A stretch of 64,000 bases of DNA from contig NZ_QRDW01000008.1 in NCBI RefSeq assembly GCF_003385955.1, positions 1-64,000 on the forward strand. The letters run 5' to 3'. The position numbers and the translations under genes were made by a program. The DNA comes from Aestuariispira insulae. Lineage in GTDB: Bacteria > Pseudomonadota > Alphaproteobacteria > UBA8366 > Aestuariispiraceae. Position 1 is the first letter of the stretch. Every line of letters starts with the position of its first letter. The notes under the pieces were generated by a model that was given only the letters and a program-made list of their open reading frames with translations, did not search any database and was not told the origin of the DNA. This document shows, piece by piece, positions 15,204-21,832 of this stretch.

Positions 15204-16421
15204 TCAGACGCCGTCGATCGGCCCCTTGCGCAGGCGCAGGCGGAGCGCGTTTAGCTTGATAAAGCCTTCCGCATCGCGCTGATCGTAAACATCATCTTCC
15301 TCAAAGGTCACCATGGCCTCGGAATAGAGGCTGTTTTCGGATTTGCGGCCGGTGATGATGACATTGCCTTTATACAGTTTCAGGCGCACGGTGCCGGAAA
15401 CCATTTCATTGGCTTTATCGATGGCAGCCTGCAGCATTTCGCGTTCCGGTGCGAACCAGAAACCGTTATAGAGCAGCTCGGCATAGCGCGGCATTAGCTC
15501 GTCTTTCATATGCATGGTGCCACGATCAAGGGTGATCGATTCCATGGCACGGCGCGCATGGAACAGAACGGTGCCGCCAGGCGTTTCATAAATGCCGCGG
15601 GATTTCATGCCGATGAAGCGGTTTTCTACGATATCGATGCAGCCAACGCCATTGCGACCGCCCATCTCATTCAGTTTGGTCAGCAGGGCCGCAGGCGTGA
15701 GGCGCTCGCCATTGATGGCAACCGGGTCGCCCTTTTCAAACTCGATCAGGACCTCTTCCGGCTTGTCAGGCGCATCAAACGGGCTGACCATGCGGGAAAG
15801 CACATTGTCATATTCCGGCTCCATCCACGGATCTTCCAGAACTTTGCCCTCGGAAGAGATATGCAGCAGGTTCGCATCCTGGGAGAAGGGGGCTTCGCCG
15901 CGCTTGTCTTTCGGGACCGGGATCTGATGCTTTTCCGCATAATCGATCAATTTGGTGCGCGAAGTCAGGTCCCATTCACGCCAGGGAGAGATGATCTTGA
16001 TGTCGGGTTTGAGCGCGTAATAGCCAAGCTCGAACCGGACCTGGTCATTGCCCTTGCCGGTGGCGCCATGGGCAACGGCATCGGCCCCGACCTGTTTGGC
16101 GATCTCAATCTGTTTCTTGGCGATCAGCGGGCGCGCAATGGAGGTGCCCAACAGATAGGTGCCTTCATAAAGCGCGTTGGCGCGAAACATGGGGAAGACA
16201 TAGTCGCGAACAAATTCCTCGCGGACATCCTCGATGAAGATCTCCTTGATGCCCATCATTTCCGCTTTTTTGCGGGCGGGCTCCAGCTCTTCACCCTGGC
16301 CCAGGTCCGCGGTGAAGGTCACCACTTCACAGCCATAGGTTTCCTGAAGCCATTTGAGGATGATGGAGGTATCCAGGCCGCCCGAATAGGCCAGGACGAC
16401 TTTTTTCACGCTGTCCGTCAT
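15204..16421 (-). CDS. argG: Argininosuccinate synthase
   Basis: Condenses citrulline with aspartate using ATP, the penultimate step of arginine synthesis. The 405-residue protein has the N-type ATP pyrophosphatase PP-loop AYSGGLDTS (about residues 10-18), the conserved [14 protein letters not shown] segment (about 119-132) and the SPWREW motif, all typical of the bacterial type. It stands alone in its transcription unit: argH is not adjacent. The 148-base upstream gap holds an imperfect long hairpin (16512-16550) that might act as a leader structure. Confidence 0.97.
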
Positions 16422-16569: not shown

Positions 16570-17043
16570 CTATTCCGTCACGATCAATTTGTAGTCCGGT
16601 GTGGTATTCAGCGGACAGGAATAAAGATATTCACCAGGCGCCAGATCAACCGCATAATCGCGCGATGTGCCGGAGGTCAGGCCGCCGCCGGAAACACTGG
16701 TCTTGGTCAGTTTGTGAAGCGGGTTCTTCCAGTCATAATCCTTATCCCGGATCCAGAAACCCAATTCATAGGGCACATCCCGGTTGGTGACCCGGAAAGT
16801 ATAGCGCCCGGCTTTCAGGGTTATGGGTTTGGCGCTTTGCAGGCGACCTGTACCTGTCTTGGCATTGATCGCTTCGCAATCGGCCTTCTTGCTGCTCTTA
16901 TATTGATGATCCACGCCATTTTCCGATTCAATGAACTGGCAGGCAGTCTGGGTGAGGGTGATAACATCGGCGGCATTTGCCTGAGCGGAAGGTAAGAGGA
17001 AGGTAAGTGCGAAAAACGGAATGGGTAGAGCTTTTATAAGCAT
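16570..17043 (-). CDS. Secreted cupredoxin-like protein without obvious copper ligands
   Basis: A 157-residue protein with a Sec signal peptide (about residues 1-24, ending ANA before ADVI). The second half has a cupredoxin-like strand pattern: ITLKAGRYTFRVTNRDVPYE, then a strand-rich middle, and APGEYLYSCPLNTTPDYKLI at the end, which resembles the copper loop of blue copper proteins. The cysteine (about 143) is kept, but the histidine and methionine ligands expected around it are missing, so copper binding of the usual type is unlikely. Three cysteines (35, 56, 143) could form a disulfide. It probably acts in the periplasm; function unknown. A perfect 18-base palindrome lies about 77 bases upstream of its start. 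Confidence 0.6.
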   Translation of the reverse strand: MLIKALPIPFFALTFLLPSAQANAADVITLTQTACQFIESENGVDHQYKSSKKADCEAINAKTGTGRLQSAKPITLKAGRYTFRVTNRDVPYELGFWIRDKDYDWKNPLHKLTKTSVSGGGLTSGTSRDYAVDLAPGEYLYSCPLNTTPDYKLIVTE

Positions 17044-17169: not shown

Positions 17170-17973
17170 TCAGAATAACTGTTGGAAATTTTCCCGGATA
17201 CGTCGATAGGTGCCGTCCTGATGCATTGTGCTCAACTGGCTGTTAAACTGATCACGCAAACCGCTGTCCCGGAAGCCGACGAACCACCAAAGCGCATTGT
17301 CGCCAGGAAAGGCGGCATAGCGTGCGGTGACTTCATGGGGAACACCCGCTTCGCGCTGTAAAACCTGGACCCACCATTTCAGCAGAGTATCGTCAATTAA
17401 GATGGCCTGGCAGCCGCCCTTCAACCATTGTCGGACCTGTTTTTTCTGAAGCGCAAATTCACGATAATCGGAGAAGAAGGGAATGGTCTCGTCAAAGGGA
17501 GACCCAAGATTTTCTCTCGCGTTCTGCCAGGCGCAGACCGAATGCCCGCGCAGGTCGGGCCAGTCCTGAAAACTAATGTCATCCCGCTCGTGGGTGACGA
17601 CATAATTGCGGTAGGCAATGAAAGGGCTGGAATAATAGATTGACGGATCGGTGGGCTGAACCTCGACGGCGACATCGACATTTTGGTGTTTGAGTGCAAT
17701 TTCAAGGCGCTTATTGGCCCCAAAAGACGGGACGAATTTGCGGCCCATGCGGTTAAAGATTTCGCGGGTCAGCTCGACCGATATGCCGGTTTGGTTTTCT
17801 TCCATGACATAGGGCGGCCGGGAGATGCCGAATATGACGGAAAGCACCTCATCCGCCCTTGCGGCCGGGGCTAAAACACTAACCATCACAAGGACGAAAA
17901 GCGATAACCGTCTTGTAGACAAGACGAACAGGGGGCGGCCGGGCCGGGAATTGAAGGCGGGTCCATTGCGCAT
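17170..17973 (-). CDS. Periplasmic solute-binding protein, family 3-like
   Basis: A 267-residue protein with an unusually long basic N-terminus before its signal-peptide core (hydrophobic stretch about residues 22-36, cleavage near ARADEV). The mature part matches the bacterial extracellular solute-binding protein family 3 fold: an opening strand with SVIFGISRPPYVM, GISVELTREIFNRMG, a hinge region with RNYVVTHERD, and WFVGFRDSGLRDQFNSQL near the C-terminus. Such proteins bind amino acids or related compounds. No ABC permease or ATPase is adjacent, so it may act as an orphan receptor or be a non-transport member. Ligand unknown. Confidence 0.8.
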   Translation of the reverse strand: MRNGPAFNSRPGRPLFVLSTRRLSLFVLVMVSVLAPAARADEVLSVIFGISRPPYVMEENQTGISVELTREIFNRMGRKFVPSFGANKRLEIALKHQNVDVAVEVQPTDPSIYYSSPFIAYRNYVVTHERDDISFQDWPDLRGHSVCAWQNARENLGSPFDETIPFFSDYREFALQKKQVRQWLKGGCQAILIDDTLLKWWVQVLQREAGVPHEVTARYAAFPGDNALWWFVGFRDSGLRDQFNSQLSTMHQDGTYRRIRENFQQLF

Positions 17974-18061: not shown

Positions 18062-18604
18062 TTAATGGAGGCTTTGCCGGTGTGACGCTTCCGATTTGGC
18101 CAACGATGTTTCGGTTGTCTGTGATGCCGGATCGGAGATTGCCGGGATCCAGTCGCGGAAAGGAACGGCGTGCCCAGCCTGTTTCATGGCATCAGACCAG
18201 GATTGGATCATCGGCATGGCGATGCGCAGCGCCGCCGGCTGGATCAGACTTTCCAGCGCGGTCTCAGCGAGACCGATTTGATCTCGCTGGCAGAGAGCCA
18301 GGGCCTCCATTATCAGGAATTCCTCCTCTGAGATGCCCGGACAATGCACGCATCTTATGTCGATCGGTGCTTGCAGGCCTGACACCAGAACGCTCATGAA
18401 ACCATCCATGTCGGCCATGGCCCGCGGTGCGCCCGCCAGTTTATAGGCATCACGCAGCAATTGCTGGGGGTGCTTGCCGCGCCGGAAAAAATCCGCCCAG
18501 AACCGCACGCTCCACAGGCACAGCTGTTCAGAGAAAGTCATGTCTTTAAGGTGCGGAACCGCGCGCAGGCGGGGCATCTCGGAAGGGTGTGCGGTAGATT
18601 TCAT
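18062..18604 (-). CDS. Hypothetical protein, paralogue of the divergent gene at 18725
   Basis: I do not recognise this 180-residue soluble protein. It is mainly helical. The central part, EEEFLIMEALALCQRDQ followed by about 25 residues to MPMIQSWSDAM, aligns with PDELLILRALAAVQRDE ... VDMMALARLMG in the divergent gene, and LCLWSVRFWADFFRRGKHP aligns with the segment around AMRLWQDGRRNWHL, so the two are paralogues. Two cysteines are close together (RCVHCPG, about residues 80-84) and absent from the partner. The 120-base gap between the two starts holds a 19-base palindrome and a good promoter, which suggests shared control. Confidence 0.6.
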   Translation of the reverse strand: MKSTAHPSEMPRLRAVPHLKDMTFSEQLCLWSVRFWADFFRRGKHPQQLLRDAYKLAGAPRAMADMDGFMSVLVSGLQAPIDIRCVHCPGISEEEFLIMEALALCQRDQIGLAETALESLIQPAALRIAMPMIQSWSDAMKQAGHAVPFRDWIPAISDPASQTTETSLAKSEASHRQSLH

Positions 18605-18631
18605 TGATCTGGATCACTTTTTGCCAAAGTT

Positions 18632-18650
18632 GTTAAGAATTATTCTCAAC
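18632..18650. promoter_or_regulatory. 19-base palindrome resembling an iron-regulator (Irr/Fur-type) box
   Basis: GTTAAGAATTATTCTCAAC has two 9-base arms that match in eight positions around a single central base. Its core AGAA-TTA-TTCT with flanking TT/AA fits the pattern TTnAGAAnnnTTCTnAA known for the alphaproteobacterial Irr iron-control element; Fur-family sites are also AT-rich dyads. It lies between the starts of two divergent paralogous genes and just upstream of a -35 element. Confidence 0.5.
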
Positions 18651-18654
18651 TATA

Positions 18655-18684
18655 TTGACATTAATAATCACTCGCAACAATAAT
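18655..18684 (+). promoter_or_regulatory. Sigma-70-type promoter for the 18725 gene
   Basis: TTGACA (18655-18660), an 18-base spacer, then AATAAT (18679-18684) at a normal distance from the start codon at 18725. The 19-base palindrome ends five bases ahead of the -35, a position suited to activation or repression. Confidence 0.6.
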
Positions 18685-18724
18685 CAAGCCTAGAAACCGC
18701 ATCCTTACGAGTCTTGAAATCGTC

Positions 18725-19288
18725 ATGAAATCTCCACAAAGTCGAAACGACCTAACCCTATATCCACCCCGCGGCCGGATCTCTCTGAGCCGATCTCATG
18801 GAAAGGGTAATGCTGTGTGGCAGGAATCCTCTACTGGCTCTTTGATACTGGACCCTACTTCGGGTCTTTTGGTCACCGCCATGCGTCTCTGGCAGGATGG
18901 CCGGCGCAACTGGCATCTGGTTTCGCGTGAATTCCGGTCCCTGATGGGTTCCGAGAAAGGTGGCTGGGCGCTGGAACATTTTGAATCGATGATGGCGGCG
19001 ATCCTGAACCATGCCAATCGTGAACTTTCCATATCCAACCCGGGTCAAGCCGCGCTCTCGCCGGATGAATTGCTGATTTTAAGGGCGTTGGCGGCTGTCC
19101 AGCGTGACGAATTTGATATCTTTGCCACCGCCATGCAGGGGCTTTTCGATCCCATGCACCGGGCGGAGCCGGCGGTGGACATGATGGCGCTGGCCCGTCT
19201 GATGGGTCGCTGCGGTGTGACCATCGGCAATGTGCCGGCGGAAACCGGCGATTATCTGGCGATGCCGGATCTGGTGGCTGCCGAATAG
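18725..19288 (+). CDS. Hypothetical protein, paralogue of the divergent gene at 18062-18604
   Basis: A 187-residue soluble protein, not recognised. The first 35 residues are polar and probably disordered. A helical core follows: LLVTAMRLWQDGRRNWHL, a middle helix around EHFESMMAAILNHANRE, and PDELLILRALAAVQRDE leading to VDMMALARLMGRCG. The core is homologous to the gene on the other side of the palindrome. The hydrophobic pattern suggests a compact helical bundle rather than a membrane protein. Start chosen at the only nearby ATG, 40 bases downstream of a good -35/-10 pair. No function can be given from sequence; a role under iron-dependent control is a guess based on the operator-like site. 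Confidence 0.65.
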   Translation: MKSPQSRNDLTLYPPRGRISLSRSHGKGNAVWQESSTGSLILDPTSGLLVTAMRLWQDGRRNWHLVSREFRSLMGSEKGGWALEHFESMMAAILNHANRELSISNPGQAALSPDELLILRALAAVQRDEFDIFATAMQGLFDPMHRAEPAVDMMALARLMGRCGVTIGNVPAETGDYLAMPDLVAAE

Positions 19289-20200: not shown

Positions 20201-20275
20201 AGCGCAAATTAATTCGCTTTAACAGTTGCAACATTTCCGTATCCTTTGTTCAACTCAAAACAAGGAGACAGGACA

Positions 20276-21832
20276 ATGACCGCAACCAAGGGCATGAATA
20301 TCCTGGTGATCATGGCCGATCAGCTGAATGGCTTTTCGCTCGGCTGTTATGGCAACCCGGTTGTGAAGACCCCAACCTTTGACAAATTGGCGGCGGAAGG
20401 GGTTTTGTTTGAAAACGCCTATGTGAACAGCCCGCTTTGTGCGCCGGCCCGTTTCACCATGATGGCGGGCCAGCATGCGTCGCGCATCAAGGCCTATGAC
20501 AATGCGGCCTATTATCCCTCCAACGTTCCGACCTTCGCCCATTACCTGCGCGCCATGGGCTATCAGACCTGCCTGTCGGGCAAGATGCATTTTATCGGTG
20601 CCGACCAGATGCATGGCTTTGAAGAACGTGTGACCACCGATATCTACCCTGCTGATTTCGGCTGGGTGCCTGACTGGGAATCGGAAGAGCGTATCGACTG
20701 GTGGTATCACAATATGATGTCGGTCAAGCAAGCAGGCGTGGCCGAAGCCACCAACCAGCTGGATTTTGATGACGAAGTGGCGTTCCAGGCCCGGCGCAAG
20801 CTCTATGATTATGCCCGGGCGCAATCGTCCGGTGTGGACCAGCGGCCTTTCTTCCTGCTGGCCAGCTTCACTCATCCCCATGACCCTTATGCCACGCGGC
20901 AGAAATATTGGGACATGTATGATAATGCGGAGATCGACCTGCCCAGGGTTCCGGCGATGGATTATGCCGACATGGACCCGCACAGCCAGCGCCTGCACCA
21001 GGTTTCCGACATTGGCGCAGTGGATATCACCGAACAGGATATCCGCAATGCCAGGCGCGCTTATTACGGCAATATCACTTATGTGGATGAACAGGCAGCC
21101 AGCCTGTTGAAGGTTCTCGACGAAACCGGTATGCGCGACAATACGATTGTTGTCGTCATTTCCGACCATGGTGACATGCTGGGTGAGCGGGGCCTTTGGT
21201 ACAAGATGAGCTTCTTTGAAGCCTCCTGCCGGATCCCGATGATTGTCTCGGCCCCGAAACTGTTCGGGTCCAAACGGGTAACCAATGCAGTTTCCCAGAT
21301 GGATTTCCTGCCGACCTTGATGGATCTTGCGGAATTGAGTGGGTCAGAAGAGAAGCCGGAAGTTGTGGAGCCCCTTGATGGGCGCTCCCTGCTGCCGCTG
21401 CTGGAAGGGGCTGCGATCGATGACCCGGATGAGGTGATCGGTGAATATATGGGCGAGGGGGCCATCGCCCCGGTCCTGATGATCCGGCGCGGCAAATACA
21501 AATACATCCATTGCGACGCCGACCCGGTCCAGCTCTATGACCTGGAGGCCGACCCCAACGAGCTGACCAACCTGGCGGAAGACCCGGCCCATTCGGAACG
21601 CAAAGCCGCGTTCGAGAAGGAAGTTTACGAGCGCTGGCAGCCGGAAGAGCTGCATTGGCAGGTTCTGCAGGATCAGAAAAAGCGCCGTCTGCTTTACAAT
21701 GCGTTGAAAACCGGTCGGTTCCAGCCCTGGGATTATCAGCCGGGCCGCGACGCCACCCAGCAATATATGAGGAACCATCTGGATCTCAACGATCTGGAGC
21801 GAACCTCCCGTTTCCCTGCGCCAAAAGCCTAA
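20276..21832 (+). CDS. betC: Choline-sulfatase
   Basis: Hydrolyses choline-O-sulfate to choline and sulfate in the cytoplasm, giving a betaine precursor and sulfur. The 518-residue protein has the type I sulfatase motif CAPAR with the formylglycine cysteine at 55, metal-site residues in MADQ (about 13-16) and SDHGDM, and a C-terminal tail typical of BetC (PWDYQPGRDA ... YMRNHLDLNDLER). The ATG at 20276 has AAGGAGA eight bases ahead; a TTG at 20246 is unlikely. It is divergent from a LysR regulator. The rest of the bet pathway is not here, but a BCCT carrier (33437) and a betaine-homocysteine-type methyltransferase (55257) are in the window. Conversion of the cysteine needs a sulfatase-maturating enzyme not seen here. 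Confidence 0.95.
   Translation: MTATKGMNILVIMADQLNGFSLGCYGNPVVKTPTFDKLAAEGVLFENAYVNSPLCAPARFTMMAGQHASRIKAYDNAAYYPSNVPTFAHYLRAMGYQTCLSGKMHFIGADQMHGFEERVTTDIYPADFGWVPDWESEERIDWWYHNMMSVKQAGVAEATNQLDFDDEVAFQARRKLYDYARAQSSGVDQRPFFLLASFTHPHDPYATRQKYWDMYDNAEIDLPRVPAMDYADMDPHSQRLHQVSDIGAVDITEQDIRNARRAYYGNITYVDEQAASLLKVLDETGMRDNTIVVVISDHGDMLGERGLWYKMSFFEASCRIPMIVSAPKLFGSKRVTNAVSQMDFLPTLMDLAELSGSEEKPEVVEPLDGRSLLPLLEGAAIDDPDEVIGEYMGEGAIAPVLMIRRGKYKYIHCDADPVQLYDLEADPNELTNLAEDPAHSERKAAFEKEVYERWQPEELHWQVLQDQKKRRLLYNALKTGRFQPWDYQPGRDATQQYMRNHLDLNDLERTSRFPAPKA

Follow-up and report, generated by a model that had tools for sequence, protein, structure and literature searches.

The closest described counterparts of the locus reported here are operators that respond to iron. 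Classical Fur boxes (E. coli and Vibrio consensus; PMC7536154) are 19-bp inverted repeats that lie at the core promoter and have GATAAT arms. A second counterpart is the Irr/ICE operator of Rhizobiales and Rhodobacterales (PMC3413700). The ICE box has an AGAA-N3-TTCT core. Fe-Fur is reported to repress bfd of Caulobacter (PMC11475020), and hemP, bfd and exbBD of Rhodobacter sphaeroides to rise under iron limitation (PMC4176601). We analysed a 64,000-nucleotide stretch of the Aestuariispira insulae genome (hereafter, the window), in which two divergent genes, A and B, flank a short spacer, and computed homology, boxes, predicted promoters, conservation and neighbouring genes. The spacer resembles a classical Fur-box promoter in that its core promoter region carries an inverted repeat of 19 bp; elsewhere in this genome, the pattern of that repeat also marks genes of the haem and siderophore type. 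It differs in its arms, which read TTGMGAAT, and in having two boxes, which would serve two overlapping, opposite promoters of paralogues. The AGAA-N3-TTCT core is shared with Irr/ICE operators and an IrrA protein is encoded here, but the genome-wide distribution of the ICE pattern does not fit. The operator type is well known; the protein family under its putative control is not. The larger result is an unnamed protein family of Alphaproteobacteria, in which most of the top-ranked members examined have a candidate Fur box upstream.

Gene A (18062..18604, minus strand) encodes a helical protein of 180 amino acids that ends in ...SLH and has a single CxxC (CVHC), located in a loop preceding a conserved DE. 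Gene B (18725..19288, plus strand) encodes a diverged paralogue of 187 amino acids with no such cysteine pair, and the open reading frame list of the window leaves 120 bases between the two genes. BLASTP aligned A with B at 28% identity across 102 amino acids (E 2e-8), and a single profile captured both in profile searches. Neither protein matched a Pfam or NCBIfam family at E values up to 1, and seven relatives gave insignificant matches only against the same two databases. According to the initial annotation, two unrecognised genes on opposite strands encode a single type of helical protein in two diverged copies, only one of which has a CxxC, and our results bear out both statements. A and B are members of an unnamed, mainly alphaproteobacterial protein family, within which B groups with the Cys-less/CCPC side, although tree support for this grouping is weak. 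Reading of the two sequences alone suggests that both proteins are cytosolic.

The spacer holds two Fur-type boxes. Box 1 (GTTAAGAATTATTCTCAAC, 18632..18650) is a palindrome of 19 bases, in which 8 of 9 pairs are complementary about a central T. It has 1 mismatch to the Fur-type pattern TTGMGAATNATTCKCAA, which we composed after inspecting the sites of the window and of a related genome, G001. Box 2 (TTAATAATCACTCGCAA, 18661..18677) is a weaker, degenerate second copy that was absent from the initial annotation; it has 3 mismatches to the pattern, and its G001 equivalent has 1. Sigma-70 promoters are predicted for both genes: TTGACA-18-AATAAT (11/12) for B at 18655..18684 on the plus strand and, overlapping it, a weaker TTGCGA-17-TATAGT (9/12) for A at 18649..18677 on the minus strand. 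On these predictions, box 1 contacts the -10 hexamer of A and ends 4 bases ahead of the -35 hexamer of B, while box 2 occupies the gap that separates the two hexamers of B and also spans the -35 of A. The boxes accordingly overlap the core promoters in the manner of Fur boxes. A near-perfect palindrome and a good sigma-70 promoter abutting it had both been pointed out initially, and both are present. A repeat finder reported the spacer as free of inverted repeats, probably because one pair of the palindrome is mismatched.

Since proteins A and B are only 28% identical and AT-rich palindromes do occur, the palindrome could in principle be an ordinary one that lies by chance between two unrelated short open reading frames. 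However, when searched with up to 3 mismatches, GTTAAGAATTATTCTCAAC matched only itself on each strand of the window, where shuffles lead one to expect 0.01 matches. The genome control gave 0, and the box is conserved together with both genes in G001 and across the family at large. We therefore rejected chance, which we regard as exceedingly improbable.

Conservation was examined in 14 genomes of the GTDB family, that of A. insulae included. A was matched in 11 of them and B in 2, a rarity that we count against the best explanation given below; a first search of the genome contigs with B alone as the query found no match. G001 is the only relative in this set found with both genes, which are divergent there too. 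Its spacer retains a block that contains the two boxes, the -35 hexamer TTGACA of B and the complete pair of promoter hexamers of A. The A hexamers and their 17-base spacing are identical in the two genomes; the B promoter has the same -35 in G001 but not the same -10. The initial annotation had made its reading depend on conservation of the palindrome in relatives that keep both genes, and in the sole such relative box 1 is conserved.

Which regulator would bind these boxes? The genome encodes Fur (L048), Irr (L049) and Zur-like (L050) proteins. The Irr protein matches NF045678 at 200.9 bits (cut-off 150), and the Fur protein matches PF01475 at 127.6 bits; its best NCBIfam match is also Fur, but at 101.3 bits against a cut-off of 146. 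Allowing up to 2 mismatches, TTGMGAATNATTCKCAA has 10 sites in the 4.8 Mb genome and 0 in a reversed control. Outside the A/B spacer, 6 of 9 sites adjoin iron-uptake genes: two adjoin the divergent pair of a HemS/ChuX gene and a TonB receptor gene, one adjoins another TonB receptor gene, and one each lies upstream of genes for an imelysin, a Peripla_BP_2 protein and a MotA/ExbB-family protein. The other 3 have no recognised iron neighbour, as judged from Pfam for L052 and L057 and from reading only for L055.

The initial annotation had instead read the core of the palindrome as an Irr ICE box, in which case Irr would set the iron response of both genes. The presence of an Irr protein above its cut-off speaks for this reading, as does the AGAA-N3-TTCT core, and box 1 fits the ICE consensus, taken as TTTAGAANNNTTCTAAA, with 2 mismatches. 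It fits the Fur-type pattern with 1, so the ICE likeness is fair but not discriminating. Genome-wide, the ICE pattern has 12 sites versus 22 in the reversed control and is thus not enriched, in contrast to the Fur-type pattern, and because of this we demoted Irr as the preferred reading. The family as a whole argues in the same direction: only 11 of 133 upstream regions contain an ICE pattern at up to 3 mismatches, compared with 95 of 133 for the Fur-type pattern, and 55 of those 95 boxes have an arm starting CGAA, which breaks the AGAA core. We consider an Irr operator at this locus highly unlikely. One ICE-like sequence of this genome, TTAAGAATGGTTCTTAA, lies outside the window (G000 contig C9:68122-68138) with 2 mismatches to the pattern. 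The irr gene (C9:65704) is about 2 kb away, and the sequence could be a genuine target of Irr.

Fur is a more probable regulator than Irr, and regulation of A and B by Fur, through the candidate boxes, is in our judgement very likely. Iron control from a shared operator, as proposed initially, has good sequence support, with the regulator the part to be revised. We propose that the spacer may act as a Fur-controlled bidirectional promoter. When iron is present, Fe-Fur would occupy box 1 and the weaker box 2 and block both promoters, leaving A and B silent; when iron is short, Fur would leave and the two proteins would be produced together. We infer this repression from the position of the boxes. 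A and B would then be small helical proteins that handle intracellular iron or the thiol redox state during iron starvation, acting alongside bacterioferritin and haem uptake, and A, with its CxxC, might form a heteromer with B, which has none. Taken as a whole, a Fur-repressed A/B pair with a possible part in iron handling is the best explanation of the locus, and we think it likely to be correct.

How far does this family extend? A profile of 14 rows (A1) found matches in 27 of 43 genomes of the order. For a profile of 37 rows (A2), the class Alphaproteobacteria was sampled with 387 genomes, of which 115 gave a match. In a sample of 397 genomes of the phylum, A2 matched 54, of which 1 belongs to another class. 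That single match outside the class (L230, G656:C18) has neither a Fur-type nor an ICE box upstream and may reflect horizontal transfer. Named copies occur on plasmids of Azospirillum, Pseudoroseomonas and Roseivivax and also in Denitrobaculum tricleocarpae; all six plasmid copies are annotated as hypothetical protein. A search of viral contigs with the CCPC-type alignment found none. Nor was the family recognisable in a text search of the literature, a kind of search that cannot show a family to be unpublished.

Fur-type boxes are frequent across this family. We surveyed 400 nt upstream of the first domain in 133 top-ranked family open reading frames from 114 loci and found a box in 95 of 133 at up to 3 mismatches and in 115 of 133 at up to 4. 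The corresponding figures for control open reading frames of at least 200 aa at the same loci, some of which share a divergent box or may themselves be iron genes, are 48/704 and 71/704, and shuffled upstream regions contained a box in 0.75% and 5.0% of cases, respectively. In the columns flanking the pattern used for the search, A is favoured on the left (63/95) and T on the right (75/95), which lengthens the palindrome. From these boxes, the family seems to be induced by iron starvation in many alphaproteobacteria. Being widespread in the class and, among the top-ranked members examined, mostly Fur-boxed, it would be a component of iron physiology that the annotated records consulted label as hypothetical protein.

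Not all members have a box. In 18 of the 133, none was found at 4 mismatches within 400 nt, and these are counted against the best explanation. Five of the 18 occupy the second position in a tandem pair (L135, L151, L152, L158 and L173); the first genes of these pairs have 3, 4, 4, 5 and 5 mismatches, with 5 at L152 and L158. Two more (L046 and L073, in G012 and G010) lie behind another gene that has a box about 1.3 kb upstream, with 2 mismatches. At both of these loci the family gene overlaps the end of a cysteine-containing gene of about 430 aa, which resembles DUF2325. Tandem pairs of the genus g243, from genomes of 6-8 Mb (L163, L226, L227, L228 and L229), have no Fur-type box (5-6 mismatches), and the same holds for L203, L204, L224, L230 and the Roseivivax copy (5-6 mismatches); the other plasmid copies examined have boxes at 3 or 4 mismatches. 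In g243, four of five upstream regions share TCTAGAA-N2-CCTCGATATCG, from which the fifth differs at two bases. This sequence has at least 4 mismatches to ICE; it may serve as an operator for a different iron regulator or simply be conserved. Roseivivax belongs to Rhodobacterales; most Alphaproteobacteria except Rhizobiales and Rhodobacterales are said to have a Fur orthologue (PMC11475020).

Pairing of paralogues is not peculiar to the window. Defining a pair as paralogues within 700 bases, accepting partner domains down to E 0.01 and excluding a split copy in L067, we found that 23 of the 136 loci contain a pair; the tool labels assign these loci to 14 genera, and 8 of the pairs are divergent, 13 tandem and 2 fused into one open reading frame. 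The 136 loci include 80 class-wide regions taken from the top of the A2 match list and 8 extra regions picked mostly for showing pairs. Some of the named and genome-contig loci also come from genomes that were already in the sample, so that counts over these loci lean upward. The CxxC is present in exactly one member of 17 pairs, in both members of 4 (the partner's as CCPC) and in neither member of 2. In each of the 8 divergent pairs, the spacer between the two genes contains a box; the mismatches number 1, 1, 1, 2, 2, 2, 3 and 4, the last of which is close to chance.

In the family tree, the two deep lineages are joined by 7 of 7 divergent pairs and by 2 of 9 tandem and fused pairs. Because the divergent pairs come from few lineages, these are not seven independent events, and mixing of lineages over all pairs (9/16) is not significant (permutation p 0.20). 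Deep support in the tree is weak, with root supports of 0.93 and 0.25. The tree omits domains shorter than 90 residues, identical domains and the repeated loci L196-L200, by which the L067, g243 and L173 pairs were dropped. At L067 (G041:C2, 6042-6568), the A-type gene of a divergent pair consists of two overlapping open reading frames in different frames, from a frameshift or a sequencing error; the counterpart of this gene in G042 (L068), a sister genome, occupies one frame throughout. The recurrent pairing and the two fusions make a complex of A with B plausible, although we put it forward tentatively.

What might these proteins do? AlphaFold2 models have a six-helix core, with pLDDT values of 76.5 for A and 86.3 for a CCPC-type relative. 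Neither model has a match in the PDB at E < 0.001, a result that does not prove a new fold; the best Z score from VIA-align was 4.3, and a profile search of PDB sequences returned annexins only, at E 0.36 or worse. A C-terminal histidine is present in 104 of 160 family open reading frames, a few of them repeated. The cysteine loop is variable: among 162 domains, 73 have a CxxC (CCPC included), 64 another cysteine and 25 none.

The main rival to an iron-handling role is that A-type proteins are thiol-redox partners, in which the CxxC passes electrons to a peroxiredoxin and protects iron-starved cells, with B non-catalytic. AhpD serves AhpC in this way, as its redox partner. The likeness to AhpD, an alkylhydroperoxidase, lies in the helical make-up, the CxxC and the peroxiredoxin gene (Redoxin/AhpC-TSA) that follows family genes on the same strand at 7 of 136 loci, 22-95 bases away in 6 of them and, at the seventh, in the open frame after a second copy. 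AhpD chains do appear among weak Foldseek matches. These are not significant, however (E 1.1 or worse, TM about 0.25), and a Z score of about 3 is level with those of unrelated chains. Moreover, fewer than half of the domains have a CxxC (73/162), the peroxiredoxin-adjacent family genes in L069 and L117 lack it, and the window locus itself yielded no peroxiredoxin. A role as thiol-redox partner is therefore unlikely, in our view.

Among the neighbours of the family genes, a ferritin-family gene (PF00210), which we read as a bacterioferritin gene, is present no more than 2.5 kb away at 21 of 136 loci, two of which (L111 and L198) are apparently from one genome. Small Bfd-like open reading frames, identified by motif, occur at 11 of 128 loci. 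Recurrent neighbour clusters include FUR, FecCD, TonB and solute-binding proteins; clusters with no iron link, namely an AMP-binding enzyme, a histidine kinase, a chemoreceptor and LysR, also recur and are counted against the best explanation. The Roseivivax copy is flanked by hemP and DUF1289, in a genomic island that also holds genes for haem uptake, ExbBD-TonB and imelysin. The family thus resembles bfd/bfr in having a Fur-type box and, at part of its loci, in neighbourhood, but we found no sequence relation of A or B to either. The Bfd [2Fe-2S] ferredoxin has four cysteines, CxC...CxxC, whereas A has one CxxC and B none.

A further possibility is that the family comprises iron-sparing regulators, which would alter expression or protein activity in iron starvation without touching iron themselves, as the RNA RyhB does for enterobacteria. 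A Fur-type box upstream, a variable cysteine loop and the lack of any recognised catalytic motif would all suit such a function. On the other hand, no nucleic-acid-binding or regulatory family was matched in Pfam or NCBIfam, the NusB matches to the A model are weak and insignificant, and the proximity of ferritin and uptake genes is explained no less well if the proteins act on iron directly. We regard a regulatory function as improbable. Iron handling by A and B, in connection with bacterioferritin or haem, is our best guess, though an uncertain one. More speculatively still, the family may represent an unrecognised branch of the response of alphaproteobacteria to iron starvation: a Fur-repressed family with no matched PDB fold, working as an asymmetric heteromer. 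One subunit would carry the CxxC and the other would be Cys-free or of the CCPC type; together they would bind or reduce iron and help to release it from bacterioferritin or haem, or else supply a peroxiredoxin.

The gene that lies downstream of A, with the same orientation, encodes a solute-binding protein of family 3 (17170..17973, minus strand), which may be a member of the same operon. It is followed by a cupredoxin-like gene (16570..17043, minus strand), whose resemblance to EfeO is sub-threshold only. A homologue of the cupredoxin-like gene stands directly after A in G001, so that this gene follows A in both genomes, in the window past the solute-binding protein gene. Two further stretches of the window, 15204-16421 and 20246-21832, are of interest here: relatives of argG occur near family genes at 7 loci, the window included, and sulfatase relatives likewise occur at 7 loci. 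These recurring relatives place gene A in a partly conserved neighbourhood.
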